Source: a virus. From it: 24,972 nt of DNA. Below are positions 10,598 through 24,972 of the stretch, piece by piece. Within the stretch, counting starts at the first letter, position 1, and each line of letters starts with the position of its first letter. The notes beneath the pieces are model-generated. The model searched no databases. It saw only the letters and a program-made list of their open reading frames with translations, and had not been told where the DNA came from. Made by a program: the position numbers and the translations under genes. The stretch lies in the IMG/VR virus record IMGVR_UViG_3300009441_000038, positions 1 through 24,972 of that record; one strand, written 5' to 3'.

Positions 10598-10615
10598 TTT
10601 ATTTAATTTTAGTAA

Positions 10616-13614: not shown

Positions 13615-13712
13615 ATGCTGACTTTTTTTCTATATACTCTTTATATAGTTTTATTAATATTATTTTTTTTAATTTGTATATCTAAGGGAAAAACTAAGCA
13701 TTCTTAACATAG

Positions 13713-13744
13713 ATAAAAGAAAAGAAAAGGGGCAAATAGCCCCT
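13713..13744 (-). terminator. rho-independent terminator after the SSB gene
   Basis: Read on the minus strand: AGGGGC, loop TATTT, GCCCCT (13744-13728), followed directly by TTTCTTTTCTTTTATC. The G/C-rich stem and T-rich tail are textbook. It lies 22 bases past the SSB stop codon, so it should end or reduce transcription of the recombination operon before the primase gene. The 98 bases from 13615 to 13712 are AT-rich and hold only a weak promoter-like TAGTTTTT (13689-13696). Confidence 0.88.
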
Positions 13745-13765
13745 AATCTATTCTATTAGAGTGTA

Positions 13766-14044: not shown

Positions 14045-14063
14045 ATTTAATGGTATTTATTTG

Positions 14064-14085
14064 GTAGCTTAGTTGGAGAAGCTAC
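14064..14085 (-). promoter_or_regulatory. stem-loop in the SSB gene leader
   Basis: GTAGCTT and AAGCTAC form a perfect 7-bp stem around an 8-base loop, 19 bases before the SSB start, in the 75-base gap after the exonuclease gene. No T-tract follows, so it is not a terminator; it could be an RNA-processing or mRNA-stability element or a site for autoregulation by the SSB. Function is inference. Confidence 0.5.
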
Positions 14086-14119
14086 TCTGACTCCTTTATT
14101 ATTATGAGTGTGAAAAGAA

Positions 14120-14857: not shown

Positions 14858-15452
14858 AGGCTGATAATTCTTTTTTGATTGCTGTAGGTATAATGTATTT
14901 AGTTTCTAGTGTCTTAACTATTGAAGACAACGACTTAGTGTTGTTTGCCTTAACATAGTTTACTACGTCATTCCACTTATCACTGGTCTTCTTAAGTGTA
15001 GGCTTAGACTCTTGCTTAACAGCAGGTGCTGCCTCACTAATGTCTACTAAATCTTCGCCTGCCCATAAAGATAATCCCAATCCATGCATAGCAATAGCCT
15101 TAACCGTACTACGTTGTATGGTCTTGTTTACTGCAAATGATGTGATCTTATCCACACTAAGTGATTGGTTGTTGTGTCCCATTATAGGTAGGTAGTCTAT
15201 ATGCTCTACACCTTCTATTGTTACACCAACCTTTACATAACCTGTATTGCCATCTGTAAAGAAGTTCAACTCAGTTGCCTCTGACTCATATACCTTTCGG
15301 TTTGCATCAGGGTATTGGTCTTTTACCATAGCCCAGGCATATGCCCAAGATAAGTAATCAAACCTTCCTTTCTTTTCTAATCTATCCTTAACATTAAGTG
15401 CTGCTAATGTTTTGAATGTTGTCTTTTTTCCCGTTGTTGTTTTTGTTGCCAT
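14847..15452 (-). CDS. Sak3/DUF1071-type single-strand annealing protein
   Basis: 201 aa. FDYLSWAYAWAMVKDQYPDA (31-50), FFTDGNTGYVKVGVTIEGVE, then LPIMGHNN and NKTIQRSTVKAIAMHGLGL with LWAGEDL (109-135) are the hallmarks of DUF1071 proteins, the Sak3 group of phage annealing recombinases. The conserved part ends near 140. A Ser/Lys linker leads to a small helical C-terminal domain (155-201), possibly for DNA or partner contact. It anneals complementary single strands and works with the overlapping exonuclease and the SSB. Confidence 0.88.
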   Translation of the reverse strand: MATKTTTGKKTTFKTLAALNVKDRLEKKGRFDYLSWAYAWAMVKDQYPDANRKVYESEATELNFFTDGNTGYVKVGVTIEGVEHIDYLPIMGHNNQSLSVDKITSFAVNKTIQRSTVKAIAMHGLGLSLWAGEDLVDISEAAPAVKQESKPTLKKTSDKWNDVVNYVKANNTKSLSSIVKTLETKYIIPTAIKKELSAYVK

Positions 15453-15463
15453 TTTGTTTTAAA

Positions 15464-15724
15464 TTATATTAGTTCTAGTTTTAACATGTCCTCTGTAGAT
15501 AGCCCACACTTTACAGCTACCTTCTTGTTGTACTTCTTGATAGCACCACTAAGTGTAAATAGCCTATACAATGTCCACAATCCACAGCCACCCAATGTAA
15601 GGTAGTAGAATATCTGTTTACCCATGTTGTTCATACTTCCATAAGACCATCCTACTAATAGGAATAAAATCCATATGCTTCCCTTGTCTAATGCTTGTGC
15701 GTTATACGCGTCATAATTTGTCAT
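15464..15724 (-). CDS. TM2-domain-like membrane protein
   Basis: 86 aa with two predicted membrane helices: SIWILFLLVGWSYGSMN (16-32) and IFYYLTLGGCGLWTLYRLFTL (38-58, without its first and last residues). The Gly-rich second helix ending in W-x-x-x-R-L resembles the TM2 domain, found in many small bacterial and phage membrane proteins of unclear role. A basic C-terminal tail (KKYNKKVAVK) would face the cytoplasm. The start overlaps the stop of the preceding gene as ATGA. Placement inside a recombination operon is common in Bacteroidota phages but unexplained. Confidence 0.72.
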   Translation of the reverse strand: MTNYDAYNAQALDKGSIWILFLLVGWSYGSMNNMGKQIFYYLTLGGCGLWTLYRLFTLSGAIKKYNKKVAVKCGLSTEDMLKLELI

Positions 15725-16119
15725 AATCGTTTGGTTTTAGAAATTTTACTGTACTTATTTATTAATTCACTTCTTTTAATCTTCATAGACTTGTAATGTT
15801 TTTTATTGTTCCTGCTGTTGATCTCTTTCTTTATGCTTTTATTTAAAGCTTCTATCCTATCTAAGTAGGATTTCTTTAAGACATCCACAACCCCTGGTCT
15901 AAATCCATTGTTTAGAAATGAATCGTATAGATATTCCTCTATCTCTTCATACTCTAATCCAAAGGTTCTAGTGTTGAGTATTTTTATTTCATCACGTATC
16001 TTAACAACTTTAATACCTTTATAAATGTATGCTTGTTTGTTTCCATAAGACATGTCTACAGAGACATTATCTTCAATGGCCTGTTGCCATATATCTAAAA
16101 GGGTATACGTTCTAGTCAT
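15721..16119 (-). CDS. hypothetical protein with basic C terminus (132 aa)
   Basis: Starts at ATG 16119, 8 bases inside the preceding DnaA-C-like gene; stop overlaps the TM2-like gene. The first half is mixed alpha/beta (LLDIWQQAIEDNVSVDMSYG, then KGIKVVKIRDEIKIL); the second half is a long, very basic helix (about 88-132; KKEINSRNNKKHYKSMKIK) likely to contact nucleic acid. I recognise no family. Tight overlap on both sides says it is translated with its neighbours. Confidence 0.75.
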   Translation of the reverse strand: MTRTYTLLDIWQQAIEDNVSVDMSYGNKQAYIYKGIKVVKIRDEIKILNTRTFGLEYEEIEEYLYDSFLNNGFRPGVVDVLKKSYLDRIEALNKSIKKEINSRNNKKHYKSMKIKRSELINKYSKISKTKRL

Positions 16120-16408
16120 TAAATTTTTCTATGCAGTTTTCAATTAAGTCCCATACATCTTTGTCTGTAGACTTGTTTATCTTTTCAATACCATAGTCAA
16201 TGTTCTGTCTAGTAACATCAAAGCCATTGCTTTTCATTAGGTTTCTGATGTCCACTATCTTCATTGGTCTTTTAGTACATATGTAGTACAGTATATACCT
16301 TGGAATAGAGAACCTTATCTCTCTGGTATTTGAAAATAACTCGTCTCTTGTAATGCCACACTCCTCACATACGAAGTTGGCATACAGATTAAATATTCTG
16401 TTCTTCAT
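16112..16408 (-). CDS. divergent DnaA domain IV-like protein
   Basis: 98 aa. The pattern CEECGITRDELFSNTREIRF, then SIPRYILYYICTKRPMKIV, then a helix-turn-helix ending VTRQNIDYGIEKI (65-77) follows DnaA domain IV: a short helix, the S-x-R-x-x-x-x-x-x-R basic helix, and a recognition helix. The box-reading signature is altered (TRQNIDYGI where DnaA has RDHxTVxHA), so DNA specificity probably differs. It may be a transcriptional regulator of this operon or an origin-binding factor. Start ATG 16408 lies inside the preceding 45-aa gene (20-base overlap). Confidence 0.62.
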   Translation of the reverse strand: MKNRIFNLYANFVCEECGITRDELFSNTREIRFSIPRYILYYICTKRPMKIVDIRNLMKSNGFDVTRQNIDYGIEKINKSTDKDVWDLIENCIEKFND

Positions 16409-16526
16409 TTTTTTCAGTATTAGTATCGTTAGAAATAAAGCCCCAAGAAAATGGCGCTTGAATAATGGGGAGTGAGTTCAACTCTCCCTCTCTTTGTTTA
16501 ATGAACTCTTCACTTGATCTTCCCAT
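16389..16526 (-). CDS. small phage protein (45 aa), first gene of the recombination operon
   Basis: ATG 16526, stop TAA 16389, overlapping the next gene by 20 bases. It begins MGRSSEEFIKQREGELN, has a hydrophobic middle (SLPIIQAPFSWGFIS) and an acidic tail. Similar MGR-[ST]-S-E-x-[FY] starts occur in short proteins of Bacteroidota phages. It is the first gene after the promoter at 16602, with a leader of roughly 70 bases that contains operator-like repeats. Function unknown. Confidence 0.65.
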   Translation of the reverse strand: MGRSSEEFIKQREGELNSLPIIQAPFSWGFISNDTNTEKNEEQNI

Positions 16527-16552
16527 CAGTATAGAATTTAATTATTATTTTT

Positions 16553-16591
16553 TGTAAACACTTAAGTTTACAAAATATAAATAATGTAAAC
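16553..16591. promoter_or_regulatory. operator-like triple repeat TGTAAAC/GTTTACA
   Basis: On the plus strand TGTAAACA (16553-16560), GTTTACA (16566-16572) and TGTAAAC (16585-16591) stand in alternating orientation, forming two overlapping inverted repeats. They lie just downstream of the TATATTTG promoter at 16602-16609, where a bound dimeric repressor would block transcription of the recombination operon. An isolated GTTTACA also occurs at 24864-24870. Confidence 0.65.
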
Positions 16592-16601
16592 GTGTATGAT
16601 G

Positions 16602-16609
16602 CAAATATA
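16602..16609 (-). promoter_or_regulatory. Bacteroidota-type promoter (-7 TATATTTG) of the recombination operon
   Basis: TATATTTG on the minus strand matches TAnnTTTG exactly. The upstream 40 bases are nearly identical to those upstream of the promoter at 17529; at the -33 position both have AGTT, 20 bases from the -7 element, rather than a plain TTTG. Expected start is near 16597. Confidence 0.65.
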
Positions 16610-16647
16610 CATTTTATTTTATAAATAAGAACTATTTATTTGCTTTT
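16608..16647. repeat. 40-bp duplicated promoter-upstream/gene-end segment, copy A
   Basis: 37 of 40 bases match copy B at 17535-17574. It includes the last codons of the PP-loop gene (reading KANK and stop) and the upstream part of the promoter for the recombination operon. Confidence 0.85.
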
Positions 16648-17522
16648 TTTACCTCATCAATAGAATCAAAAAGATCTATTTGATAGTTTATATCTTGTTC
16701 CTCTGGCTTTCTTTCTTCTAAATCATTTACACCACAAAAACCATTACACTCAAACAATGGCTTAGGCTCTCTGCCCTTCATCATTGTTATATCTTTCACA
16801 TCTGGGTAATCAGGATGAGGTTTTAAAAACACTAACCCACCACCCTTGCTTTGATCCTTGAGCATTGTAACAGGTGTTCCCTTGAGTTTTGTTAGGTCAT
16901 GTTCTACCTTACCCATAGCCTCAAACTTTTCAGGGAAATCTCTCTTCATTTTTTGCCAGTAACCTATACCTCCTTGAACACACCCTGTTTTAAAACAATT
17001 GTTGTTTAAGAATCCCATCTTGTACATTACAGGAACTTCTATTCCCGAATCTTGAATTATATTAATGCAATCTTTTTTTGAGTAGTAATGCATTAGTAAA
17101 GGGAATATAGGTTTAGCTCTAGAGTGATTGAGCTTCATTCCTTTAGCTCTTCTAGTCTCATCAACATCAAAGCCAAAGGCCTGATATGTAAACTCATTGT
17201 TCTTTTCCCACTTCTCCCTAGCATTTCTTTTTAGTTCAGAAGAACACACAGCTCCATGAGCAACATTTAAAGACTTGTGCTTTGTCCAAACATCTTGGAT
17301 TTTTTCATACTTGTCTCCTATATTACTAATGGTTTCTATATCAATACCATACCATTGTTCACAGTCTTTTTTAAATCGGTACGTATCTTCATGTTCGTTA
17401 TGGGTGTCTATAAATATAACCCTAACTCTTTCTTTGCCATAAGTGTCAATACATATTTTACACGTAACAGCAGAGGTAACTCCTCCTGACCACCACGCAA
17501 TAATGTCTTTTTGTTTTTCCAT
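16632..17522 (-). CDS. PP-loop ATPase, phosphoadenosine phosphosulfate reductase-like
   Basis: 296 aa from ATG 17522. SGGVTSA (12-18) is the PP-loop that binds ATP or an adenylated substrate. FIDTHNEHEDTYRF follows the second strand, as in PAPS reductase-family proteins. Cysteines cluster as CSSELKR, NNCFKTGCVQGG with IGYWQ, and CNGFCG near the C terminus, suggesting an iron-sulfur cluster or thiol chemistry. Related phage proteins are annotated PAPS reductase-like; relatives such as DndC act in DNA phosphorothioation and others in tRNA thiolation. None of the other dnd genes is here, so the reaction is open. The longer start (TTG 17531) lies inside the promoter element and is rejected. The gene has its own promoter and very little or no 5' leader. 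Confidence 0.82.
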   Translation of the reverse strand: MEKQKDIIAWWSGGVTSAVTCKICIDTYGKERVRVIFIDTHNEHEDTYRFKKDCEQWYGIDIETISNIGDKYEKIQDVWTKHKSLNVAHGAVCSSELKRNAREKWEKNNEFTYQAFGFDVDETRRAKGMKLNHSRAKPIFPLLMHYYSKKDCINIIQDSGIEVPVMYKMGFLNNNCFKTGCVQGGIGYWQKMKRDFPEKFEAMGKVEHDLTKLKGTPVTMLKDQSKGGGLVFLKPHPDYPDVKDITMMKGREPKPLFECNGFCGVNDLEERKPEEQDINYQIDLFDSIDEVKKANK

Positions 17523-17528
17523 ATTATA

Positions 17529-17536
17529 CAAATTTA
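17529..17536 (-). promoter_or_regulatory. promoter (-7 TAAATTTG) directly before the PP-loop gene
   Basis: TAAATTTG fits TAnnTTTG, and the upstream 40 bases copy those of the 16602 promoter. Only TATAAT separates the element from the ATG at 17522, so transcription should start at or within a few bases of the start codon, giving a leaderless or nearly leaderless mRNA. Confidence 0.62.
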
Positions 17537-17574
17537 CATTTTATTTTATTAATAGAAACTATTTATTTGCTTTT
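17535..17574. repeat. 40-bp duplicated promoter-upstream/gene-end segment, copy B
   Basis: Near-copy of 16608-16647 placed between the stop of the GP88-like gene and the PP-loop gene. Read on the minus strand it begins AAAAGCAAATAAATAG, which in copy A encodes the PP-loop protein's final residues. Here it is not part of a gene, so it is a transplanted gene end plus promoter-upstream region. Confidence 0.85.
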
Positions 17575-17575
17575 A

Positions 17576-18181
17576 TTAATGAAAGATTAGTCCTACTTTT
17601 TTGTTGTCACTGAACCATTTGGTAGCCATCAGGTCAATGCTGCTAGAATCAATATAGCCAGCGGAATTAAGAACATCAATATTGTTAAAAATCTTTGTAT
17701 GCCTGTGTAGTTCTTCATCTATTAAATTTTTTTGTTTACCTGAATCACTGAATATGATGTCGTAGTTATCAGGTAGGTTAGTTTTTAAAATCATATCTAT
17801 CATGTTAGTGTAGCTGTAGAATCTTACACTTGGATTCTGATTAGCTATTGTAATCCACTTAGCTAGGTAACTCCTTGAGTAGTAGTCACCACTATCGTGT
17901 ACCCTTACATAATCAGGACGTTTCTTTTTTATCTCTGCATTCATAGCGTCAATAAACTCTACAGTCTTACTAAGTTGATATCGTTTCTCAAAGGCAGGCT
18001 TTACATTACTCCATATATAAGCACCCTTCTTGGCATAACAGAACTTAACACACTCGTCTGCCATAGGGCATGTGAGCTTACCGCTTGCTGATTTGTACGC
18101 AGGTATACCAAAGTTGAATACCCTTAAGTCAAGCGCTTTGCTTGTCTTCTTTAGCTTACTATTTTGTGTTAGTAGATTCAT
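17576..18181 (-). CDS. GP88-like protein (mycobacteriophage gene product 88 family)
   Basis: 201 aa. The N-terminal VFNFGIPAYKS followed by LTCPMADECVKFCYAKKGAY (36-55) and the middle DYVRVHDSGDYYSRSYLAKW with IANQNPSVRFYSYTN match the family named after mycobacteriophage gene product 88. Cys38, Cys44 and Cys48 are a probable metal or iron-sulfur site, and the HDSGDYYS motif is the other hallmark. The pattern hints at a barrel enzyme, but no reaction is established that I know of. It overlaps the 52-aa gene as ATGA and is followed by the PP-loop gene, another cysteine-rich putative redox or thiol enzyme, hinting at a shared pathway. Confidence 0.82.
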   Translation of the reverse strand: MNLLTQNSKLKKTSKALDLRVFNFGIPAYKSASGKLTCPMADECVKFCYAKKGAYIWSNVKPAFEKRYQLSKTVEFIDAMNAEIKKKRPDYVRVHDSGDYYSRSYLAKWITIANQNPSVRFYSYTNMIDMILKTNLPDNYDIIFSDSGKQKNLIDEELHRHTKIFNNIDVLNSAGYIDSSSIDLMATKWFSDNKKVGLIFH

Positions 18182-18336
18182 TGTATCTTATTGTTTTGAG
18201 CGTTAATAATCTCGCCATATGGCGCTTCTTTCTTCCATCTCCTAGCCTCTTGTAAGTCAAATGTATACCTAGTCCTAACCAGGATACTATCTTTAGAGTT
18301 AGAGAGTTTTACTTTAAACAGTTGGTCTTTTACCAT
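18178..18336 (-). CDS. small basic protein coupled to the GP88-like gene (52 aa)
   Basis: ATG 18336 to TGA 18178, overlapping the GP88-like start as ATGA. It begins MVKDQLFKVKLSNSKD, continues SILVRTRYTFDLQEARRWKK and ends APYGEIINAQNNKIQ. The strand-strand-helix pattern and Trp/Lys/Arg content suggest a tiny nucleic-acid- or protein-binding domain. I do not know the family. It is preceded by about 200 noncoding, structured bases with a strong AAGGAGGTAA sequence 16 bases before the ATG. Confidence 0.68.
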   Translation of the reverse strand: MVKDQLFKVKLSNSKDSILVRTRYTFDLQEARRWKKEAPYGEIINAQNNKIQ

Positions 18337-18352
18337 TATTATTAATTTTAAG

Positions 18353-18510
18353 TTACCTCCTTGGAGGGGCGTCTTTCCGTCCTGTCAGTCTTGTTGTAAT
18401 TTATGAGTTTATGGAGGGCTTCTTAAACCCTACACGCCACCTCAATTTAACTTGTTAAGCATTACAACGGCCTACATTAGCGACAACTAAGGATTGTATT
18501 TATGGCGTGT
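18353..18510 (-). promoter_or_regulatory. structured leader RNA with alternative pairings, before the GP88-like operon
   Basis: No gene fits in 18337-18546. ACACGCCA (18432-18439, plus numbering) is perfectly complementary to TGGCGTGT (18503-18510), while the overlapping ACGCC-A-CCTC-AA (18434-18445) is complementary to TT-G-GAGGGGCGT (18361-18372). The two pairings exclude each other, as in attenuators and riboswitches. The last element is followed on the minus strand by AAGGAGGTAA, a perfect Shine-Dalgarno-type site (18362-18353) that itself can pair with the adjacent CCTCC. No promoter was found in the stretch, so it is probably read through from the upstream operon. Confidence 0.45.
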
Positions 18511-18526
18511 TTAATTTTTTACACAC

Positions 18527-18542
18527 TTATGGGTGTGAACAA
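18527..18542. repeat. 16-bp 3'-end repeat (TTATGGGTGTGAACAA), noncoding copy
   Basis: The same 16 bases occur at 20694-20709 and 15 of them at 23066-23080. In those two places they are the end of genes and encode Cys-Ser-His-Pro plus the stop codon. Here the copy follows the stop of the YubB-like gene and belongs to no gene. It also makes a short hairpin CACAC-CCATAA-GTGTG. Confidence 0.8.
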
Positions 18543-18546
18543 TATA

Positions 18547-19191
18547 TTATAATTCTTTTATAGCTTCTTCTAGCGTGTCTCCAAGATATTCATCTAGGCT
18601 ACCCCATCCATAGTACCCCTTTTTGTAATTACCTATACTATTCTGGTAATCATTTTCAAGGAAGTATATGTCATCGTGATCTGTGGAATCCCAATCAGGT
18701 GTGTCCCACTCCAATGTGCGTATATCTTCACCATCAACAATCTCAAACTCAGCACCCCAACCCTGCTCCTCCTCATAGTAGTAGTCAAAGGTTGGTATGT
18801 CTTTAATGAGCATAGCCATAATAATTGGTGCTACAGGCCCCCAAGCTGTAGTGAATCTGTACGTGCCATTATCCCACTCGTTATCGTAGCAGCCCCACTT
18901 AGTACCCCAATACTTAGATGCCCAGTCGTACCAATTATCTGCATCATACTTATCAAGTAACATCTTTTGCCTGTCTATGGTCAATGGATAGTGCTTGAAA
19001 TCATCTGTCTTGTTCTTCTCCATCTGCTTGTCATACTCTGATTGGGTTACAATCCTAGCAGGACTTGATGTGTTGATTAGCTCATCAGGCATGGGCTTGT
19101 AGTATCTACATAGCCCCACCTTAGCTATCTCTTCTAACTTCTTACTGTACTTCTCTGACACAGTTATCTGTGCGTAAACGTGATTTGGCAT
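18547..19191 (-). CDS. DUF1281 / YubB ferredoxin-like domain protein
   Basis: 214 aa. MPNHVYAQITV at the start, YKPMPDEL near 32-39, NWYDWASKYWGTKWGCYDNE (about 86-105), RFTTAWGPVAPI and a final YYEEEQGWGAEFEI match the plasmid and phage DUF1281/YubB family, whose members carry a small ferredoxin-like domain and begin MPNxxxN/Q. Function unknown. The C-terminal third is strongly acidic. The ATG sits in one of the copied leaders (AATAGAGTTATG), and the previous gene's stop codon lies within that leader. Confidence 0.82.
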   Translation of the reverse strand: MPNHVYAQITVSEKYSKKLEEIAKVGLCRYYKPMPDELINTSSPARIVTQSEYDKQMEKNKTDDFKHYPLTIDRQKMLLDKYDADNWYDWASKYWGTKWGCYDNEWDNGTYRFTTAWGPVAPIIMAMLIKDIPTFDYYYEEEQGWGAEFEIVDGEDIRTLEWDTPDWDSTDHDDIYFLENDYQNSIGNYKKGYYGWGSLDEYLGDTLEEAIKEL

Positions 19192-19220
19192 AACTCTATT
19201 TGTTTAATTGATTAATAAAT
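19189..19220 (-). repeat. copied translation leader, copy 1
   Basis: The start region ending CAAATAGAGTTATG is nearly identical to those at 19932-19963 and 20198-20229. The core TTTAATTGATTA plus CATAACTCTATTT (plus strand) is shared. Shorter versions occur at 21771-21799 and 21954-21966. Confidence 0.8.
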
Positions 19221-19414
19221 TCTACTACCTCTTCATACGCTTCATCTATGGTTTTGTATAGCTTGTAATGAGTATCTTCTCTTGCGTCAGCCATCTTGAT
19301 AATTACAGGCATCAACCAATCCCATGAGGTGTGGTAGTTGGGTGTGACATACTCGCCCATCTCTTGGTAGTCTTCCATACCCATAAATTCTGCAATTAGT
19401 TTATTGTTTTTCAT
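19196..19414 (-). CDS. phage ABA-sandwich-like small protein
   Basis: 72 aa. NKLIAEFMGMEDY, then YHTSWDWLMPVIIKMAD, then a C-terminal TIDEAYEEVVEFINQLNK follow the widespread short phage protein pattern (IAEFMG, YHTSWDWLMPVVEKI, AVVEFI) associated with the phage ABA sandwich domain. Function unknown. The stop codon TAG is inside the leader of the next gene, only four bases before that gene's ATG, suggesting translational coupling. Confidence 0.82.
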   Translation of the reverse strand: MKNNKLIAEFMGMEDYQEMGEYVTPNYHTSWDWLMPVIIKMADAREDTHYKLYKTIDEAYEEVVEFINQLNK

Positions 19415-19434
19415 ATCTTTATTTAATTAATTGT

Positions 19435-19704
19435 TTAACATGCAGCCCACCCAATAAATACATAGTGTGTGTCTGTCTCATAATACTTGCACTCTCTCTT
19501 GTCTATATTATCCAATGCCTCCTCATAGGCATCGTCATCTTTAGGCTCGGATATCTTACCCTCCAATGAACACGTTGTTATTGTGCCATTGTACGGGTCG
19601 TGTCCGTACTCATACACCTCCTCTTCTCTCAAAGATTGGTAGGCTTCTCTTGCTGATTTGTAATGTTTCTTACTTGCATCGTAATGTATACTATTTGCTC
19701 CCAT
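19435..19704 (-). CDS. conserved phage hypothetical protein (HDPYNGTI type, 89 aa)
   Basis: A helix with KSAREAYQSLREEE precedes YEYGHDPYNGTITTCS, a motif I recognise from small proteins of Bacteroidota phages, then acidic linkers and CKYYETDTHYVFIGWAAC. The Tyr-Gly-His-Asp-Pro-Tyr-Asn-Gly-Thr-Ile block is the diagnostic part. Two cysteines at the ends of the last strand could pair or bind metal. Function unknown. It starts two bases after the previous gene's stop. Confidence 0.75.
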   Translation of the reverse strand: MGANSIHYDASKKHYKSAREAYQSLREEEVYEYGHDPYNGTITTCSLEGKISEPKDDDAYEEALDNIDKRECKYYETDTHYVFIGWAAC

Positions 19705-19706
19705 AG

Positions 19707-19934
19707 TTATAGTTTATTAAGTGATTCTTTAATCATTTCTAGATACATCTCTTGCATCTTCTTTTGTTCCTTACATACTTGCTCAATGATAAACGGAAGG
19801 TCTTTGTATAGCTCTTCCACGTTTATTACAAGGACCTGCTCGTTACCCACATCTCCATGATTTATTACTAGCTCCCCATCTGAACAGTGTAAGCTGTTTG
19901 TTTCTCCTACGTAAACTGATTTGTTTTTTTCCAT
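19707..19934 (-). CDS. hypothetical protein (75 aa)
   Basis: Starts at ATG 19934 in a copied leader (copy 2). N-terminal strands (KSVYVGETNSLHCSDGELVI) are followed by NEQVLVINVEELYKDL and a long amphipathic helix (IIEQVCKEQKKMQEMYLEM). No family recognised. The arrangement of a small sheet plus a helix resembles other early phage regulators, but that is a weak analogy. Surrounded on both sides by genes of the same direction with short gaps. Confidence 0.72.
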   Translation of the reverse strand: MEKNKSVYVGETNSLHCSDGELVINHGDVGNEQVLVINVEELYKDLPFIIEQVCKEQKKMQEMYLEMIKESLNKL

Positions 19935-19963
19935 AACTCTATTTATTTAATTGATTATTAATC
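19932..19963 (-). repeat. copied translation leader, copy 2
   Basis: Same element as 19189-19220, differing by one base over the first 25. It contains the stop of the upstream gene (19958-19960) and gives AATAGAGTTATG at the next start. Confidence 0.8.
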
Positions 19964-20200
19964 TACTATCCCACCTCTGTAGTAATTTTCTATTGTGTGG
20001 TGTTTAGGGAAGAATTCTTCCGTATATCTTTTATTGTCTTCATCACTTACAAACTTATAATGACTTCCATTACAGTATTTCAATTGATTATTTAATTTAT
20101 AATACCTTGCAAAAGATTCGTCTGTGTCAGGCCACTCTTCTGTCTTTACTAATTCACTTTTAGCACCTTTATAAGGTGAGTTCCAATACTCTACTTCCAT
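19958..20200 (-). CDS. conserved phage hypothetical protein (YCNGSHYKF type, 80 aa)
   Basis: MEVEYWNSPYKGAKSELVKT leads to a helix (FARYYKLNNQLKYC) and the motif KYCNGSHYKFVSDEDNKRY, which I recognise from several small phage proteins; the rest (EEFFPKHHTIENYYRGG) is rich in aromatic and charged residues. Function unknown. ATG 20200 lies in copied leader 3. The stop lies in leader copy 2 of the next gene. Confidence 0.75.
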   Translation of the reverse strand: MEVEYWNSPYKGAKSELVKTEEWPDTDESFARYYKLNNQLKYCNGSHYKFVSDEDNKRYTEEFFPKHHTIENYYRGGIVD

Positions 20201-20229
20201 AACTCTATTTATTTAATTGATTAATATTT
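20198..20229 (-). repeat. copied translation leader, copy 3
   Basis: The first 26 bases match copy 2 exactly. The two overlap-like junctions formed with the flanking genes suggest that the leader was duplicated together with gene boundaries. Confidence 0.8.
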
Positions 20230-20470
20230 ATATCGTGTATATTGTGTGGTCTTCTTTACCTCCTCCAATAAACCCAGCGCCTCCATCATTACCCTCATCA
20301 TCTGATTGTAATACCAGGTATGTTCCATCTGTGAATACTATACATAGTGGCCTCTTGTACCAACCGAAGTCGTCTGCCTCTTCTTTAGTCATGTACCTAC
20401 ATGAGTCTACCTTCTTTCCTTTTAAGATTTTCTCAAATCTGTACCCGTGTTTCTGATCTTCTGATTTCAT
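20228..20470 (-). CDS. conserved phage hypothetical protein (GWYKRPL...QSDDEGNDGG type, 80 aa)
   Basis: The blocks MTKEEADDFGWYKRPLCIVF, TDGTYLVLQSDDEGNDGGA and the end KEDHTIYTI match a very widespread phage and plasmid protein defined by exactly these motifs. The Asp/Glu/Gly-rich loop could bind a metal ion, but no activity is established. Starts at ATG 20470 after TTAACT, two bases after the previous gene's stop. Confidence 0.85.
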   Translation of the reverse strand: MKSEDQKHGYRFEKILKGKKVDSCRYMTKEEADDFGWYKRPLCIVFTDGTYLVLQSDDEGNDGGAGFIGGGKEDHTIYTI

Positions 20471-20472
20471 AG

Positions 20473-20682
20473 TTAAAATTTAATTTTAGTTAGAAAATAT
20501 TCATATACTTCAGGTATATGTTTTTTATAGTAAGGTTGCTCTGATGCAACCCACTCTTTTAATGCTGACTCAGAAAGCCAAGGGTGTTGTATAACCTTTA
20601 GCTTCATGTTAAACGTAGGTTCTATCTCATCGATAAAATCTCCTACAGTCCAGCCTTCCCAAATGTGTTTATCTCTACTCAT
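20473..20682 (-). CDS. conserved phage hypothetical protein (WEGWTVGDFID type, 69 aa)
   Basis: MSRDKHIWEGWTVGDFIDEI (1-20), a middle EPTFNMKLK, and the end YYKKHIPEVYEYFLTKI match a family common in phages (W-E-G-W-T-V-x-D-F-I-x-x-L-E; Q-P-Y-Y-K-K-x-I-P-E-V). The start is taken at ATG 20682, after AAAAACT and where the family begins, not at the in-frame ATG 20709, which lies inside the previous gene. Function unknown. Confidence 0.82.
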   Translation of the reverse strand: MSRDKHIWEGWTVGDFIDEIEPTFNMKLKVIQHPWLSESALKEWVASEQPYYKKHIPEVYEYFLTKIKF

Positions 20683-20693
20683 AGTTTTTGTTA

Positions 20694-21386
20694 TTATGGG
20701 TGTGAACAATCTGATTTAAGTTCTTCACAACGTTTTAATATTTCTTTACTTGTATATGTAATAGAGTCGTCATCGATATCTTTTATATCAGTTAGATACC
20801 CCTCATCTATATCGTCTTGTATCTCACATCTATCCTTATACTCCCAAAGGTATTCGTGTATCATGCCATCACAATAGTCACCACCCTTGAACATCCTGGC
20901 ATGTGTGTACCCTCCCCTAGCATCTGCACCATTATGTATCTGTATGATATGGTAATACTCCCCATCAATAATAAGGTTACTACCCTGTAATATCTGCGAT
21001 AGGTCAGAGTCTCCGTTGTACGTGTTCCATGTCCTCTCTATCTCTATATCATGTAACTCGTCTAGCATTTCATATGCCTCTGTAGATACACCGTATAGAT
21101 TACACACCGCATCCCAATTGTCATTCTCATCTTGTAGCCTGTTAAACTCCTCACAGATATCATCTATCTCTAGGTTGTTAGTTAAATAGTGGAATACAGA
21201 TACAGTCCTCTCTATATCTCCATACCTATAGTCAAATACATAAGACTCCTCATCTTCATCCTCAAAGTCCTGCATTGTTTTACGTTGGTTTCTCTGCCAC
21301 ATTCTCCCATCAGTACCACCACTATCTAAGAAGTGTTTACCTGTGTTCTCTGTTAGCATCTTGTACACTAATTGTTTTGTTTCCAT
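20694..21386 (-). CDS. conserved phage hypothetical protein (GKHFLDSGG type), acidic, 230 aa
   Basis: The N terminus (LTENTGKHFLDSGGTDGRMW followed by QRNQ) matches a broadly distributed phage protein recognised by N-x-G-x-H-F-L-D-S-G-G-x-x-G-R-x-W. The rest is strongly acidic, with a conserved-looking NGDSDLSQILQG and IIQIHNGADARGGYTHARMF. No catalytic motif is evident; charge suggests DNA mimicry or protein binding, which is inference. It ends in CSHP and a stop, the same tail as the gene at 23066-23287. Start ATG 21386 follows AATTAAACT. Confidence 0.85.
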   Translation of the reverse strand: METKQLVYKMLTENTGKHFLDSGGTDGRMWQRNQRKTMQDFEDEDEESYVFDYRYGDIERTVSVFHYLTNNLEIDDICEEFNRLQDENDNWDAVCNLYGVSTEAYEMLDELHDIEIERTWNTYNGDSDLSQILQGSNLIIDGEYYHIIQIHNGADARGGYTHARMFKGGDYCDGMIHEYLWEYKDRCEIQDDIDEGYLTDIKDIDDDSITYTSKEILKRCEELKSDCSHP

Positions 21387-21402
21387 AGTTTAATTATATT
21401 AG

Positions 21403-21516
21403 TTAGTTAATAAGTTCATCTTCGTCTTCATCATAGAAGTCCGAGTGATCTTTACATGCACCACATATATCATCACTTAAATAGCTCGCTTCAGCGTCAC
21501 AACAAGTACTTAACAT
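21403..21516 (-). CDS. 37-aa zinc-binding-type acidic protein
   Basis: ATG 21516 overlaps the stop of the preceding gene by 7 bases; stop TAA 21403. The peptide has Cys5-Cys6 near the start and ICGAC (Cys18, Cys21) in the middle, then an acidic tail (YDEDEDELIN). Short zinc-knuckle proteins with a Cys-Cys...Cys-x-x-Cys arrangement and an acidic end are common in Bacteroidota phages. Function unknown. Confidence 0.7.
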   Translation of the reverse strand: MLSTCCDAEASYLSDDICGACKDHSDFYDEDEDELIN

Positions 21517-21773
21517 ATTAGCTCTGATTCATCGTTAACAAAATTATCTAGTATGTACGCACACGGGTCGTCCATGTAGTAGTAGCATTCATCCATTCGT
21601 ATGTCTAACTCAATGGCTTCTTCATCAGTAAACAATCTCTTGCCGTACCTCATGTCCACCACTTCTTTAGCATATGTTTCGGGATGATATAACAAATCAT
21701 CCGCTGCTAGTTGGTCAATGAATAACTCAGCATCCTTAGTGCTGGTCACTTCTTTCTTAAAGTATTCTCTCAT
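21510..21773 (-). CDS. conserved phage hypothetical protein (87 aa)
   Basis: The pattern AELFIDQLAADDLLYHPE, then GKRLFTDEEAIELDIRMDE, then DDPCAYIL matches a family of short phage proteins with I-x-x-L-x-x-D-x-L-x-H, G-x-x-L-F-T-x-x-E-A and a final Asp-Pro-x-x-Tyr-Ile/Leu. Acidic and mostly helical. ATG 21773 lies in a shorter copied leader (21771-21799). Function unknown. Confidence 0.75.
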   Translation of the reverse strand: MREYFKKEVTSTKDAELFIDQLAADDLLYHPETYAKEVVDMRYGKRLFTDEEAIELDIRMDECYYYMDDPCAYILDNFVNDESELIC

Positions 21774-21785
21774 AACTCTATTGTA

Positions 21786-21956
21786 TTAATTAATAAATTC
21801 TTTTTTGTAGTACTCCCATGCTTGCTCTTTTGTGTACAACCTATTGCGATACAACGCGTCTTGTGATGCGTAATAAAAGTTATCATCTTTATCTACATGC
21901 CAAATAATATTGTCGCTCACAAGCCAAGCTTCAAACTCTTTTCTTTTCTTGCTCAT
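21786..21956 (-). CDS. hypothetical protein (56 aa)
   Basis: MSKKRKEFEAWLVSDNIIWH leads to DNFYYASQDALYRNRLYTKE and an aromatic C-terminal helix (QAWEYYKKEFIN). The start is taken at ATG 21956 because it follows AATAGAGTT, the leader shared with other genes here, and lies four bases after the previous stop; the in-frame ATG at 21983 lies inside that gene. The RLYTKEQAWEYY end resembles the LFTDEEA block of the neighbouring 87-aa protein, so the two may be distantly related. Confidence 0.7.
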   Translation of the reverse strand: MSKKRKEFEAWLVSDNIIWHVDKDDNFYYASQDALYRNRLYTKEQAWEYYKKEFIN

Positions 21957-21960
21957 AACT

Positions 21961-22269
21961 CTATTGTTTTTGTCTGTATTCATTCAGATGATATTCACTT
22001 ATTGCTGAGTGGTATGCCCACATACACTTGTTTATAAATACTAATGTAGAGGTCTTATTGCATTCGATTGGAAATGTGTAAAGCATTTGCTTATAAAACT
22101 CTGTCATACCTTTGTCGCTTACACACCAATCTTCCTTGAATAGTTCATACTCGTCTCCTTGCATGAAGTTCAACCCCATCACTTTACCATCTTGGTCATA
22201 CTCTATGTACATCCATCTGTCGTTTTCTTCACACCATTGGTGTACTACCTTGTCTAATTCTTGTATCAT
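21961..22269 (-). CDS. hypothetical protein (102 aa)
   Basis: The product starts MIQELDKVVHQWCEENDRWM, is rich in Trp, Tyr and Cys, and is predicted mixed alpha/beta, with DGKVMGLNFMQGDEYELF in the middle and a helical end (MWAYHSAISEYHLNEYRQK). No family recognised. ATG 22269 overlaps the stop of the preceding membrane protein gene as ATGA (22266-22269). Confidence 0.72.
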   Translation of the reverse strand: MIQELDKVVHQWCEENDRWMYIEYDQDGKVMGLNFMQGDEYELFKEDWCVSDKGMTEFYKQMLYTFPIECNKTSTLVFINKCMWAYHSAISEYHLNEYRQKQ

Positions 22270-22439
22270 GCCTGTTCTCTTTTAAGTGTTATTATTAATG
22301 CGAATATATTTGCTAGGCATAGTGCCTGGACATATACTATTTGCTCTATCGTAAATCTAGGTATGCCCTCCCATATTAAGAAGCACCATATACTTAATAG
22401 AATTACTAGTGTTGCGTACAATACGTTTGCTGTTTTCAT
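22266..22439 (-). CDS. small membrane protein with two helices (57 aa)
   Basis: ATG 22439 to TGA 22266. Two hydrophobic stretches, VLYATLVILLSIWCFLIW (6-23) and IVYVQALCLANIFALIIT (34-51), are joined by a short loop with EGIPRFTIEQ, and a basic end (LKREQA) follows. This is the layout of a helical hairpin in the inner membrane. Phage early membrane peptides of this kind may act in superinfection exclusion or lysis control, but nothing specific supports either. Confidence 0.72.
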   Translation of the reverse strand: MKTANVLYATLVILLSIWCFLIWEGIPRFTIEQIVYVQALCLANIFALIITLKREQA

Positions 22440-22449
22440 CTGTTTAGTT

Positions 22450-22800
22450 TTAATCGATTATTATTATTCCACCATAAAAGTGTCCCTGCTCTGGGCAGTC
22501 TTTCAGTGTCTCGTTTTCCCAATTACTATTCTTTAATCTTACTAGGTTTGGATATTTCATTCCATCTATTGGCTTGAAAAATATCTCTATACCTTTATCA
22601 CGTCCTTCGAATCCGTTCATCTCTGCGATTAATTCATAGATGTCCTTACCTCCGAAGTTACCATACCCTTCATAGTTACTCTCTTTCCATACATTTCCTT
22701 TGTCGTCTTTCATATAGACTGTGAATGTTGGTCTGTCGTATTGCCATGTGTTTGGTATACTATCTTGTGTGTCTGTTGTAAAAAAGCTAAATACTCCCAT
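22450..22800 (-). CDS. conserved phage hypothetical protein (MGVFSFxTxDTQ type, 116 aa)
   Basis: Starts MGVFSFFTTDTQDSIPN, continues FTVYMKDDKGNVWKESNYEG with YGNFGGKDIYELIAEMNG, and ends CPEQGHFYGGIIIID. This combination (Y-M-x-D-D-K-G-N-x-W-K-E, Y-E-G-Y-G-x-F-G-G-K-D) is a recurrent small protein in phages and mobile elements of Bacteroidota and other bacteria; activity unknown. The start is ATG 22800; the in-frame ATG at 22836 lies within the preceding gene and adds twelve residues not typical of the family. Confidence 0.85.
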   Translation of the reverse strand: MGVFSFFTTDTQDSIPNTWQYDRPTFTVYMKDDKGNVWKESNYEGYGNFGGKDIYELIAEMNGFEGRDKGIEIFFKPIDGMKYPNLVRLKNSNWENETLKDCPEQGHFYGGIIIID

Positions 22801-22804
22801 CTGT

Positions 22805-22999
22805 TTAATGTTTAATCGCCCACGATGCACCTGCACCTAGACTAGTTAGTGTTTCCTTTACTCTATTCCACCATGAGTTTTGTATCTCTAGGTCTCTGTA
22901 CTCTTGTTCTGTATACACGTTTATTGTTACGTATATTATATTTTCTATTAATCTTTTGGTCTCCACTACGTGTAGTCCGTTTACAATTCTGTGTTCCAT
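22805..22999 (-). CDS. hypothetical protein (64 aa)
   Basis: MEHRIVNGLHVVETKRLIEN, a beta segment IIYVTINVYTEQEYRD, a Trp-Trp motif (NSWWNRVKETL) and a Gly/Ala end (LGAGASWAIKH). Family unknown. Its start region overlaps the end of a possible 27-aa gene by 19 bases, and its stop lies four bases before the next ATG. Confidence 0.68.
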   Translation of the reverse strand: MEHRIVNGLHVVETKRLIENIIYVTINVYTEQEYRDLEIQNSWWNRVKETLTSLGAGASWAIKH

Positions 23000-23064
23000 A
23001 TCTCTATGTTTAAAATGTTTGACAATGATTTTACTTTTGCTATTACTATTTCTAATTCTTCCAT
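22981..23064 (-). CDS. possible 27-aa peptide
   Basis: ATG 23064 lies one base after the stop of the preceding gene and TAA 22981 falls inside the next gene. The peptide MEELEIVIAKVKSLSNILNI followed by EIWNTEL is amphipathic and helical. Spacing fits the operon, and without it a 66-base gap would stand out in this packed region. It is too short to be sure. Confidence 0.45.
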   Translation of the reverse strand: MEELEIVIAKVKSLSNILNIEIWNTEL

Positions 23065-23065
23065 A

Positions 23066-23287
23066 TTATGGGTGTGAACAGGTTAATAAATCTATCTCTC
23101 TCTTGATGCCTTGGCTTACTTTCTTGAACTTGTGTATCTGTTTAGCCTCGGTCCAGGAGCAATCATTTTCTTTCATGATGTCTTGCACGACCTCTGCATA
23201 CATACTCTTTGATTTCAAAAATTTGTCTTGCTGTTTTTTTATTAACATGCTTAGTTCTCCCACTTGTATTCTTTTACGTTTTCCCAT
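23066..23287 (-). CDS. small basic hypothetical protein (73 aa)
   Basis: MGKRKRIQVGELSMLIKKQQ starts a Lys-rich helical protein with a middle VQDIMKENDCSWTEAKQIHK and an end IDLLTCSHP. Basic charge suggests nucleic-acid contact. The last four residues and the stop codon are encoded by the same 15 bases as the end of the 230-aa protein gene (20694-21386), although the two proteins are otherwise unrelated. Family unknown. Confidence 0.7.
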   Translation of the reverse strand: MGKRKRIQVGELSMLIKKQQDKFLKSKSMYAEVVQDIMKENDCSWTEAKQIHKFKKVSQGIKREIDLLTCSHP

Positions 23288-23293
23288 TTGTTT

Positions 23294-23383
23294 TTATTTA
23301 TCTGTTATTAAATGTTTTACTATTGTTACTATGCACCCGATTGAAATTACAATCATAAGTACCTCTACTATTTCTTTTACCAT
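23294..23383 (-). CDS. single-helix membrane peptide (29 aa)
   Basis: ATG 23383, TAA 23294, six bases before the next start. MVKEIVEVLMIVISIGCIVT plus IVKHLITDK forms one hydrophobic helix (about 5-22) with charged ends. Leader AATTAAACAAATG is typical of genes here. It may be a real membrane micropeptide; size limits certainty. Confidence 0.55.
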   Translation of the reverse strand: MVKEIVEVLMIVISIGCIVTIVKHLITDK

Positions 23384-23411
23384 TTGTTTAATTGTTTTTA
23401 ATTAATATTTG
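23383..23411 (+). promoter_or_regulatory. candidate plus-strand promoter for the structured noncoding region
   Basis: TTTG (23383-23386), 17 bases, then AATATTTG (23404-23411), which differs from TAnnTTTG by one base. Transcription would begin near 23416, just before the first strong hairpin at 23424. It is the best promoter-like signal pointing into the 23.4-24.1 kb region, but on its own could be chance. Confidence 0.35.
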
Positions 23412-23649
23412 TTTTAAATAGATACGGCACAAAGATCCCTCCTCATGCCGTTAGTTTAGTTTTATGTATTCTTGTTTCTCTTATCCCTAGTACTCAGTAC
23501 TGGTCTTGACTCCATACACGAAACTATGTACTTTGCCCATAGCTTAATTTTAACGCGTTGTAATGTTTAGCTTGCTATGCCTCTATTCTATGTGGCTCGT
23601 ATCCGTCCACACGTCAAATTAATAGGTTGTTAGTTGTCCAATTTGATAG

Positions 23650-23667
23650 CGTAGGATTGACCATACG
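23650..23667. repeat. GGATTGACCA hairpin A
   Basis: Stem CGTA/TACG around the 10-base loop GGATTGACCA (23654-23663). Beyond a mismatch, outer TTG/CAA pairs may extend it. Confidence 0.85.
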
Positions 23668-23682
23668 ATGCAATGATTTTAT

Positions 23683-23708
23683 TGTAGCTAGGATTGACCA
23701 TAGCTACA
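23683..23708. repeat. GGATTGACCA hairpin B
   Basis: Perfect 8-bp stem TGTAGCTA/TAGCTACA around GGATTGACCA (23691-23700). The loop starts 37 bases after that of hairpin A. Confidence 0.9.
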
Positions 23709-23902
23709 CCTTTGCGGTTCTATCTCATATTGTTTTGATTTATTTACACATTGTAATTAATTTAAAGCCTTCACACTTTCGCCCACGTATCCCACTTTTT
23801 TTTAAAATCCAGCGGATACGGTGTACTAATGCTTCACCATCTTAGTCGCAACTTACACAACTATCTCTTTAATATACAAAACCTCTTACACCGCTATTTC
23901 AC

Positions 23903-23924
23903 GTTGTGGGATTGACCACACAAC
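23903..23924. repeat. GGATTGACCA hairpin C
   Basis: Perfect 6-bp stem GTTGTG/CACAAC around GGATTGACCA (23909-23918). Confidence 0.9.
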
Positions 23925-23938
23925 TATTAATTTTTATG

Positions 23939-23971
23939 TTTATATCGTGGGATTGACCACACGATTATAAA
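23939..23971. repeat. GGATTGACCA hairpin D
   Basis: Stem TCGTG/CACGA, extended by TTTATA/TATAAA across one bulged T, around GGATTGACCA (23950-23959). The loop starts 41 bases after that of hairpin C. Confidence 0.9.
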
Positions 23972-24095
23972 AATCTAGCAACTTTTTAGTAAGACAAAGA
24001 ACGTTAGTTTAAAGCCTATTTGCGGGCTGTTTGTGGACGTTAAACGTTGAAGTTTACCTTTGTGCTATTTCACACAAATAACGCCCGTTAAATTG

Positions 24096-24215
24096 TTAAT
24101 TTATTACCTCCTTAGTTATTGCACATATTATTTTAGTTGTACAATCTTTATCTAGCACTTCAAAATATATTTTTCCTGTGCTTAGGTCTTCAAAACTTTT
24201 TGTTATTATATACAT
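24096..24215 (-). CDS. small hypothetical protein (39 aa)
   Basis: ATG 24215 to TAA 24096, 20 bases after the stop of the 155-aa gene. MYIITKSFEDLSTGKIYFEV followed by LDKDCTTKIICAITKEVIN shows alternating hydrophobic residues of a small beta-sheet with two cysteines. Family unknown. The codons for Lys-Glu-Val near the end create an AAGGAGGTAA string that mimics a ribosome-binding site but has no start after it. Confidence 0.6.
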   Translation of the reverse strand: MYIITKSFEDLSTGKIYFEVLDKDCTTKIICAITKEVIN

Positions 24216-24235
24216 GATATTATTTTTAGTTGTTA

Positions 24236-24703
24236 TTACTTTTTTAAGTTTATAAGACTACGCTCAAAACTTTGACCGTCATTTAATTTCATTTTAACAA
24301 TTTTTTGTATTGTTTGTTCTGCAAAGTATGGGCTATATAAACCGCTTTTTGACGTTCTTACAACTTGCTTAAGTAATGGCAAATACTTTGTCTCATTTTT
24401 TAGTAGGTAATTAATAGCTACTTTACATTGATTGTGTAGTACTAAATTCTCAAGGCTTTTGGTATCTACATTATTAAGAGTTGTAGTACGTTTTACCTCA
24501 ATTAGTATTTTTTTCAAGTCTTTTTTGTACTCTAGATTTTCAACTTTGCGTTTTGCACTTTGCACATTTGCAAAACTTTTGTTTAACGCTCTCTTTTTTG
24601 CAATAGCGTCTCTTTGTTTTTGTGTTAATACCTTAGCTACTTTTTTAGTTGCTACTTTTTTTGTTGCGGTAACCGCTTTTAATACTTGTGTTGATTTGTT
24701 CAT
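24236..24703 (-). CDS. basic Lys/Ala-rich protein, promoter-proximal early gene (155 aa)
   Basis: The first ~50 residues are very basic and Ala/Thr-rich (TATKKVATKKVAKVL, then QKQRDAIAKKRAL), like histone-H1-type or nucleoid-binding tails; the rest is helical (ILIEVKRTTTLNNV, CKVAINYLLKNETKYLPLLK, SGLYSPYFAEQTIQKIVKMK). No known family. It is the first gene behind the strongest promoter in the window, with a 5'-terminal hairpin and a palindrome in its leader, so it is probably made early and abundantly and perhaps autoregulated. A DNA-binding role is inference from charge. Confidence 0.8.
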   Translation of the reverse strand: MNKSTQVLKAVTATKKVATKKVAKVLTQKQRDAIAKKRALNKSFANVQSAKRKVENLEYKKDLKKILIEVKRTTTLNNVDTKSLENLVLHNQCKVAINYLLKNETKYLPLLKQVVRTSKSGLYSPYFAEQTIQKIVKMKLNDGQSFERSLINLKK

Positions 24704-24722
24704 AATAATACTTTTTAAATTG

Positions 24723-24734
24723 CCTATATATAGG
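24723..24734. promoter_or_regulatory. 12-bp palindrome CCTATATATAGG in the early leader
   Basis: Perfectly self-complementary, flanked by G and C on both sides in the plus strand, 20 bases before the start of the 155-aa gene and within its transcript. A candidate operator for a dimeric regulator. Confidence 0.45.
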
Positions 24735-24744
24735 GCTTAATTAT

Positions 24745-24764
24745 GTTGCACGTTTTCGCACAAC
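24745..24764 (-). promoter_or_regulatory. 5'-terminal stem-loop of the early transcript
   Basis: On the minus strand GTTGTGCG, loop AAAA, CGTGCAAC: eight pairs if two G-U pairs are allowed. The expected transcription start is about 24766, so the hairpin would cap the 5' end of the mRNA and could protect it from decay. The two G-U pairs work only as minus-strand RNA. Confidence 0.5.
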
Positions 24765-24771
24765 TTGATAA

Positions 24772-24779
24772 CAAAGATA
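24772..24779 (-). promoter_or_regulatory. strong early promoter (-7 TATCTTTG)
   Basis: TATCTTTG matches TAnnTTTG exactly, and CTTG lies 19 bases upstream, within the usual Bacteroidota spacing. It points leftward at the 155-aa gene and the long block of small genes. The further upstream bases to 24972 are AT-rich without another clear signal. Confidence 0.68.
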
Positions 24780-24972
24780 ATATTACTTTTGACTTATACA
24801 AGCAAAAAACAAAGAAATATTAAAATAAAAGTAAAATAATTTATAAGTTATTGAATATCAATAGTTTACAAAGCAAAGTTTTTTTGTATTAATTTATAAT
24901 AGATCTGTATTTTATTTGTTTTTGTAGTTAATTGTTTAAAGTTATAAGTATTAAAAAAGTTAATTATTAGGA

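Follow-up and report, generated by a model that had tools for sequence, protein, structure and literature searches.

The stretch of DNA analyzed here (the window) is a complete IMG/VR record of 24,972 bases, whose genes include, by Pfam, a BT4734-like primase, DnaA-C-terminal proteins and GP88, and whose relatives include phages of Flavobacterium and other Bacteroidota; these genes and relatives suggest that it belongs to a marine Bacteroidota podovirus. Its long open reading frames, from 6625 to 24703, lie mostly on the minus strand. Between the gene of a small protein, E1, and that of a conserved 73-aa protein there is a noncoding region of about 670 nt, and it is within this region that the hairpins described below are located (Table 1).

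Table 1. Features of the locus, in window coordinates
Feature	Coordinates	Strand	Remarks
E1 gene	24236..24703	minus	155 aa, small, Lys-rich; upstream of the RNA; candidate partner
Noncoding region, proposed structured RNA	23424..24095	minus	~670 nt, inferred ends; BLASTN kinship, MFE
RNA 5' domain	23983..24094	minus	84% identity to L135 over 114 nt (BLASTN E 6e-28)
Hairpin D, first of doublet 1 in RNA order	23944..23965	minus	ATCGTG-U.GG.UCAAU.CC-CACGAT
Hairpin C, second of doublet 1	23903..23924	minus	GTTGTG-U.GG.UCAAU.CC-CACAAC
Hairpin B, first of doublet 2	23683..23708	minus	TGTAGCTA-U.GG.UCAAU.CC-TAGCTACA
Hairpin A, second of doublet 2	23650..23667	minus	CGTA-U.GG.UCAAU.CC-TACG
3' terminal hairpin	23424..23451	minus	ACGGCA...TGCCGT; degenerate counterpart of the minihelix of L183, L135, L138, L134 and L112
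73-aa protein gene	23066..23287	minus	conserved, two-helix protein; downstream of the RNA

Several other features of the window were recorded in passing. Directly after the noncoding region a 29-aa hydrophobic peptide, MVKEIVEVLMIVISIGCIVTIVKHLITDK, can be read by eye (23294-23383, minus strand); it has a close copy in one related locus (L183) and analogues in two others (L134 and L135). At 23466-23496 (minus strand) there is a partial match to the Ocean-VII RNA (19.4 bits vs. a gathering score of 53.5), which covers a sequence part of this family only, without its stem. The minus-strand word AATAGAGTTATG is found exactly at 19189-19200, 19932-19943, 20198-20209, 21771-21782 and 21954-21965, in four cases at a listed gene start, and five copies with at most one mismatch were reached in none of 100 shuffles; it looks like a shared translation start context, and the copy at 21954 suggests that the gene there begins at 21956, not at 21983. 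A second minus-strand word, TGTTCACACCCATAA, stands at or just past gene ends (18527-18541, 20694-20708 and 23066-23080, all exact); it encodes an identical C-terminus, CSHP-stop, in two proteins, and similar letters are present in L095 and L183. Two small minus-strand proteins (8039-8443 and 16112-16408) consist of a DnaA C-terminal DNA-binding domain only, the second falling below the Pfam cut-off, and the plus strand of 1-6537 encodes a giant protein that is incomplete at the contig start and 2,178 residues or more in length, and a PHROG scan of 2,172 of these residues gave nothing at E<=0.001.

An exact search confirmed the initial annotation's central observation, four identical loops enclosed by four different perfect stems at 23650-23965. 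The ten-base word GGATTGACCA is present in four exact copies, all on the plus strand (starts 23654, 23691, 23909 and 23950), and is flanked in plus-strand order by CGTA/TACG, TGTAGCTA/TAGCTACA, GTTGTG/CACAAC and ATCGTG/CACGAT. Successive loops are spaced by 37, 218 and 41 bases, in agreement with the two doublets about 200 bases apart that had been described. The repetition of a ten-base word is not rare in this A+T-rich window, where at least 11 ten-letter words recur four or five times; with at most one mismatch, 0.94 matches to GGATTGACCA are expected and four were reached in 1 of 100 shuffles. The unusual part is the stems. Given the loops, the joint chance of stems of 6, 6, 8 and 4 bp is 1.06e-14, for a pairing probability of 0.262 taken from the base composition of the hairpin region, and among 49,874 ten-base stretches of the window, both strands counted, that were treated as "loops", a stem of at least 4 bp was found at 0.66%, of at least 6 bp at 0.056% and of at least 8 bp at 0.008%.

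The minus strand is taken to be the sense strand of the hairpins because the neighboring genes and the relatives point there. Folding energy alone cannot decide the matter, because both strands of the region beat their shuffles (20 per strand; z of -3.57 on the minus strand, with no shuffle as good, vs. -2.88 on the plus strand, with one). Read on the minus strand, the loop is UGGUCAAUCC, which gives an outer stem, a single 5'-bulged U, the two pairs GG/CC and a five-base tip, UCAAU. The minimum free energy (MFE) fold of the whole region draws D, C and B with this architecture; A, which has the shortest stem, is paired otherwise and forms no isolated hairpin. The GG/CC pairing, the single bulge and the five-base tip of the initial annotation are thus retained, on the MFE fold of three of the four copies and on the architecture scan presented below, whereas its bulged A and ATTGA tip must be replaced by the 5'-bulged U of the sense strand.

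Relatives were sought along several routes. A primase search gave 292, of which 80 were kept, and the 73-aa gene and E1 were used to reach the homologous place in other phages. A search with an E1 alignment gave five loci in viral contigs and one in genome contigs; as a single query the window's E1 found no relative in viral contigs. Among 395 genomes of the order of one relative, G051, there were three E1 matches, G051 itself and two weak ones, each of whose loci had one single motif match (plus strand scanned). Twelve noncoding regions were compared, that of the window (W) and N095, N098, N101, N112, N134, N135, N137, N138, N183, N187 and N188, which are named after their loci (N112 is the region of L112); where several loci came from one phage, or from phages nearly identical to each other, they were counted once. 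Since N112, N187 and N188 are near-copies, the twelve amount to ten distinct types.

Doublet 1 is found at the same place in five other distinct E1-bearing relatives, with other stems and mostly with other loops, and doublet 2 is present in whole or in part in four of these five. In N135 doublet 1 reads AATATAT-A.GG.CAAGU.CC-ATATATT and GCAAT-A.GG.CAAGA.CC-ATTGC, and in N188 GTAAATAT-A.GG.CUUUGA.CC-ATATTTAC and AAGT-A.GG.CUUUGA.CC-ACTT; N183 has a U.CG.CAAAG.CG hairpin twice, and in N101 and N137 the first hairpin is U.GG.UUAAU.CC and the second has a different loop. Doublet 2 consists of U.AG.CAUUGU.CU twice in N112, N187 and N188, and of U.GC.CAAAG.GC and U.GG.CAACG.CC in N183; N135 and N101 have one match each, and N137 has none with a stem of 4. 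Within doublet 1 the loops are therefore identical in W, N112, N188 and N183, one base apart in N135 and different in N101 and N137, and these last two, together with the unequal loops of doublet 2 in N183, make "one shared loop per phage" a tendency. By inspection, the first C or U of the tip is followed, two to five places on, by a G or A, so that pairing across the loop is possible. The invariance originally ascribed to the loop holds within this phage and not among its relatives, most of which carry other loops; the complementarity of the flanks is kept, and no relative was seen to retain the loop without it.

Two scans, both of which select stems of at least 4 bp, measured how far this pattern exceeds chance. 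The motif scan, which also requires a C or U as the first base of the tip, gave sense-strand counts of 4 in W, 3 in N135, 3 in N112, 3 in N187, 4 in N188, 5 in N183, 3 in N101 and 2 in N137, and in each of these eight E1-group RNAs none of 200 shuffles reached the observed count; one of the five matches in N183, which lies past the minihelix described below, is probably due to chance. The other RNAs are at chance level (N095 1, N098 1, N134 1 and N138 0; 24, 24, 33 and 32 of 200 shuffles), and the antisense strands of all 12 RNAs gave a single match. The inner pairs seen were GG/CC, CG/CG, GC/GC, AG/CT, GT/AC and AT/AT. The architecture scan used no preset letters, left the first base of the tip free, and varied the bulge side, inner length and tip size in six RNAs, N112 and N187 being left out as near-copies. 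Hairpins with a 5' bulge and two or three inner pairs numbered 22, vs. 3.2 expected from 20 shuffles, and their bulge was A or T in all 22. There were milder excesses of 3'-bulged hairpins (one pair, 12 vs. 4.6 and 11 vs. 3.9; three pairs, 3 vs. 0.55) and in one 5'-bulge class with a single pair (8 vs. 4.5); in the four RNAs without E1 the 5'-bulge classes gave 4 vs. 1.25, 3 vs. 0.65 and 2 vs. 0.40, with any base as the bulge.

The strongest single piece of evidence comes from two near-copies, L112 and L188, because it is independent of how the hairpins were picked. Their noncoding regions are 97.0% identical, their E1 genes 90.4% and their 73-aa genes 99.0%. The noncoding regions, whose last 166 bases are identical, have 21 internal differences (19 substitutions and two insertions), and the hairpins hold 10 of them: eight of the substitutions alter stem 1 of doublet 1, and each loop receives one of the insertions, the same extra T. 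From L112 to L188 stem 1 changes from GTTTTTTT/ATTAAAAC to GTAAATAT/ATATTTAC; three T-A pairs become A-T with the pairing kept, and two mismatches of the L112 stem, in which 6 of 8 positions pair, are repaired. These pairs were counted by hand on an alternative alignment, MAFFT having placed the loop gap inside the stem. Two loops were thus altered alike while a stem was rewritten with its pairing retained.

The folding of an alignment of four other regions (N101, N137, N135 and N183) extends the argument along the RNA: 36 of 91 consensus pairs show a double change, and the sense strand folds at -55.2 kcal/mol vs. -30.6 for the antisense. Wobble cells (53 G-U vs. 5 A-C in the sense; 26 vs. 7 in the antisense) weigh less than this energy gap, because RNAalifold favors G-U on whichever strand is folded. 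Together with the MFE and the architecture scan, the compensatory stem of L112 and L188 bears out the proposal that selection has acted on a folded single strand. The hairpins are almost certainly RNA hairpins under selection, and they are very probably part of a structured noncoding RNA on the minus strand. The element was rightly taken to be folded; its strand can now be given as minus, it would form part of a structured RNA of ~670 nt, and its loop is phage-specific.

The kinship of this RNA with those of other phages is concentrated at its ends. In BLASTN comparisons the stretch of L112 that overlaps the 5' domain is 75% identical over 100 nt, the 3' core matches N112 (80% over 46 nt, E 1e-4), and the 3' end matches N183 (85% over 73) and N095 (97% over 90). 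R1, a model of the central domain, finds nothing credible in the window, in L112 or in L188 (a 17.5-bit match, E 1.1, lies elsewhere in the window); what links the window to the R1 group is therefore confined to the ends, the hairpins and the short match in the 3' core. Among 50 records R1 reached E<=1 in 16, strongly only in G006, a training sequence (G019 has 0.0086). At the gathering score Rfam 15 found no family in the window, and none of GOLLD, ROOL or OLE in five loci; these three are also absent from the two matches at E<=10 in window 23280-24240 and from the seven at E<=5 in seven loci. Of the 80 primase loci, 50 led to as many records, often fragmentary, and the exact loop of the window is in none of these 50; this absence was dropped as a refutation of the hairpins, the relatives carrying other loops. 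Elsewhere, an exact search for GTGGGATTGACCACAC gave five loci with stems of at most 4 bp, and the spaced doublet TGGTCAA[G/T]CC gave 42 loci, of which only L144 and L170 (contigs of L112 and L187) are in this RNA; in the listed loci no copy has a stem above 3 bp beside the 10-mer. A pattern of the conserved center returned three loci, all already known, and one of the 5' domain returned four, three known and L192, which is false. Phage records gave no match to window 22400-24972 or to the E1 and RNA of L183, and short chance-level matches to L188 and L138; an inspection by eye of two gaps in MW202828 revealed nothing similar. A mostly surface-level literature search, which took in parts of PMC12286853 and PMC2864571, returned no description of this RNA. 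A contig of 8.6 kb that was binned with a Cryomorphaceae MAG carries a copy of the E1 and RNA block (L188); the contig probably belongs to a phage, and the bin is a hint of the host.

Several related loci (L034/L134, L043/L112, L135, L138 and L183) end in a minihelix made of an acceptor-like stem, a T-stem and a TTCGANN loop, of which the window has a degenerate counterpart, ACGGCAUGAGGAGGGAUCUUUGUGCCGU. Scanning the set of loci then collected for this element turned up another three distinct matches, which were put down to chance, and none in L098, L101 or L137. Among seven loci compared with Rfam, the end of L137 alone reaches the tRNA threshold (31.3 vs. 29 bits), and L135 and L138 have weak tmRNA matches; ARAGORN reported no tRNA or tmRNA in the window or in eight loci. 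By analogy with tRNA processing, the minihelix could be a signal for RNase P/Z.

The predicted structure of E1 (pLDDT 78) is an all-helical body with a Lys-rich, low-confidence N-terminal tail. The protein has no Pfam or PHROG match at E<=0.001, and fold searches gave no confident solved relative (best Foldseek E 4.0, best VIA Z 3.1); a likeness to ribosomal protein S7 chains, at Z 2-3, was not taken as evidence. A viral model, A0A516LQP5 (41% identity, probability 1.00), is likely to be a homologue. In all six distinct types with doublets the upstream protein belongs to the E1 family, vs. none of the four without a doublet, where it is A7 (N095, N134 and N138) or a family of its own (N098); random labelling, with kinship ignored, would give this split with a probability of 1 in 210. 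The ten types are kin to one another, and a link between E1 and the RNA could arise from their exchange as a block, without any contact between them. Against E1, hhalign gave A7 E 6.8e-5 (probability 64%) and the N098 protein 0.0043 (8%), with about 16 N-terminal residues shared and nothing more. Otherwise unrelated upstream proteins (window 24236-24703, L095, L098, L101, L134, L138 and L183) have in common a short N-terminal tag resembling KTNSVKKVV, which is weak in the window's own E1 and present also in a second small protein of L101; it is possibly a targeting signal.

The primases of the window and of the L095 phage (L039 is the same record) are 98% identical. The two genomes match upstream of the locus (24972-24721, 76%) and downstream of it (94% from 23472, further parts 84-98%), and have no match at E<=1e-5 over 24720-23473, which is the E1 and RNA block; on this comparison, E1 and the RNA are exchanged as one block between close phages. 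The E1 proteins of W, L183, L101 and L137 go with a U bulge in doublet 1, those of L112, L188 and L135 with an A bulge. The co-variation of bulge and E1 that this hints at is a lead from small numbers, and doublet 2 of L112 and L188, which has U, runs counter to it; the 5' domain of the window RNA is nearer to the A-bulge group despite its U bulge.

We propose that the phage makes a ~670-nt structured noncoding RNA from the minus strand, directly downstream of the E1 gene; its transcription and its ends we infer. Each hairpin would be a repeated recognition module, composed of a changeable outer stem, a 5'-bulged A or U, and a short tip closed by two or three pairs, and the modules, arranged as two doublets, would dock copies of one partner. 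If the partner's recognition surface is common to all the hairpins of a phage, loops should tend to change in step, with the stems drifting through compensatory changes. The partner would most likely be E1, encoded directly upstream in the same exchange unit, with its basic N-terminal tail and helical body, and E1 bound to the hairpins would give a phage ribonucleoprotein (RNP). We put the chance that E1 is the partner at slightly under to about even, and regard it as an even bet that a new structured phage RNA uses these hairpins for docking, with E1 the most likely protein to bind them and form a phage RNP. The block exchange suggests an interaction with the host or with rival phages. A still broader reading, doubtful for the present, is of a new class of phage RNP, in which a ~670-nt structured RNA, tRNA-like at its 3' end and bearing bulged hairpins in pairs that co-evolve with a co-inherited RNA-binding protein, would be swapped together with this protein between close marine phages as one immunity-like or counter-defense block. 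Natural variants show how the hairpins change, and a direct test for a partner could use a hairpin of 22 nt.

The most serious competitor, although unlikely, needs no protein: the hairpins could be docking elements between RNAs, whose loop-receptor or quaternary contacts fold or multimerize a large RNA. Repeated similar hairpins in a large phage RNA of many helices would suit a symmetric assembly, and kissing loops help to hold together the nanocages that GOLLD and ROOL build from RNA alone (PMC12286853, in part); but these two are missing from the Rfam matches, a search by eye found no conserved complement of the tips elsewhere in the RNA, and the tips are not self-complementary, except for UUAA in N101 and N137. 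It is rather improbable that the RNA is a sponge whose hairpins capture a host RNA-binding protein, for instance to block a host defense or regulator, with E1 a mere neighbor. Recurring hairpins with a common loop recall sponge RNAs, and a block swap between phages with such similar primases is what host-interaction genes would show, but the loops vary among related phages, the sense loop of the window lacks the CsrA motif GGA, and no host protein was identified. Primase or initiation sites, as the initial annotation had considered, are not supported, and hairpins of single-stranded DNA serving priming, initiation or N4-like promoters for a phage RNA polymerase are very improbable: both DNA strands can form them, the phage encodes a primase and the intergenic position fits, but the region in relatives has compensatory pairs along its length and folds more strongly in the sense, and its antisense motif match is one in 12 RNAs. 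Least probable of all is that E1 and the RNA form a pair, either type III toxin-antitoxin-like or for immunity, in which the hairpins act as antitoxin by masking E1, since, for all that a small basic protein beside an RNA with units 37-41 apart is exchanged as a block, these units share about 10-14 bases and are not whole repeats, E1 matches no toxin family, and the order is protein, then RNA.

The reading of E1 as the partner of docking hairpins in a phage RNP can be set beside several known systems. The MS2-type operator, bound by a coat protein dimer, has a 5' bulged A, two pairs and a four-base loop, ANYA; the hairpins here resemble it in having an outer stem with a single bulge on the 5' side, two G-C pairs and a short loop, but in the window the bulge is U and the tip, UCAAU, has five bases, and the RNA is that of a dsDNA phage, for which no coat protein is known. 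L112, L188 and L135 have the A bulge, with other tips. Iron-responsive-element-like hairpins share a bulge below the tip and a possible cross-loop C-G pair, but two or three pairs separate bulge and tip here, and common descent is unsupported. In the sponge RNAs CsrB and RsmZ, as here, one RNA carries several hairpins whose loop is common and whose stems vary, but in the window the GGA that marks CsrA/RsmA sites is found on the antisense strand only. Type III toxin-antitoxin RNAs are near-identical tandem repeats beside a ToxN-like nuclease, whereas our units have differing stems and E1 no Pfam family at the threshold used. The promoters of N4 are template-strand hairpins used by its giant virion RNA polymerase. 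Lastly, GOLLD and ROOL are large structured phage RNAs, of about 650 to over 800 nt and with no known function, that sit near tRNA islands (PMC12286853, in part). The window RNA resembles them as a large structured phage RNA, several of whose relatives carry a tRNA-like 3' minihelix, but it has no Rfam match, is swapped with a protein gene and bears doublets of bulged hairpins; here the large phage RNA comes with a linked protein gene and with short modular hairpins.
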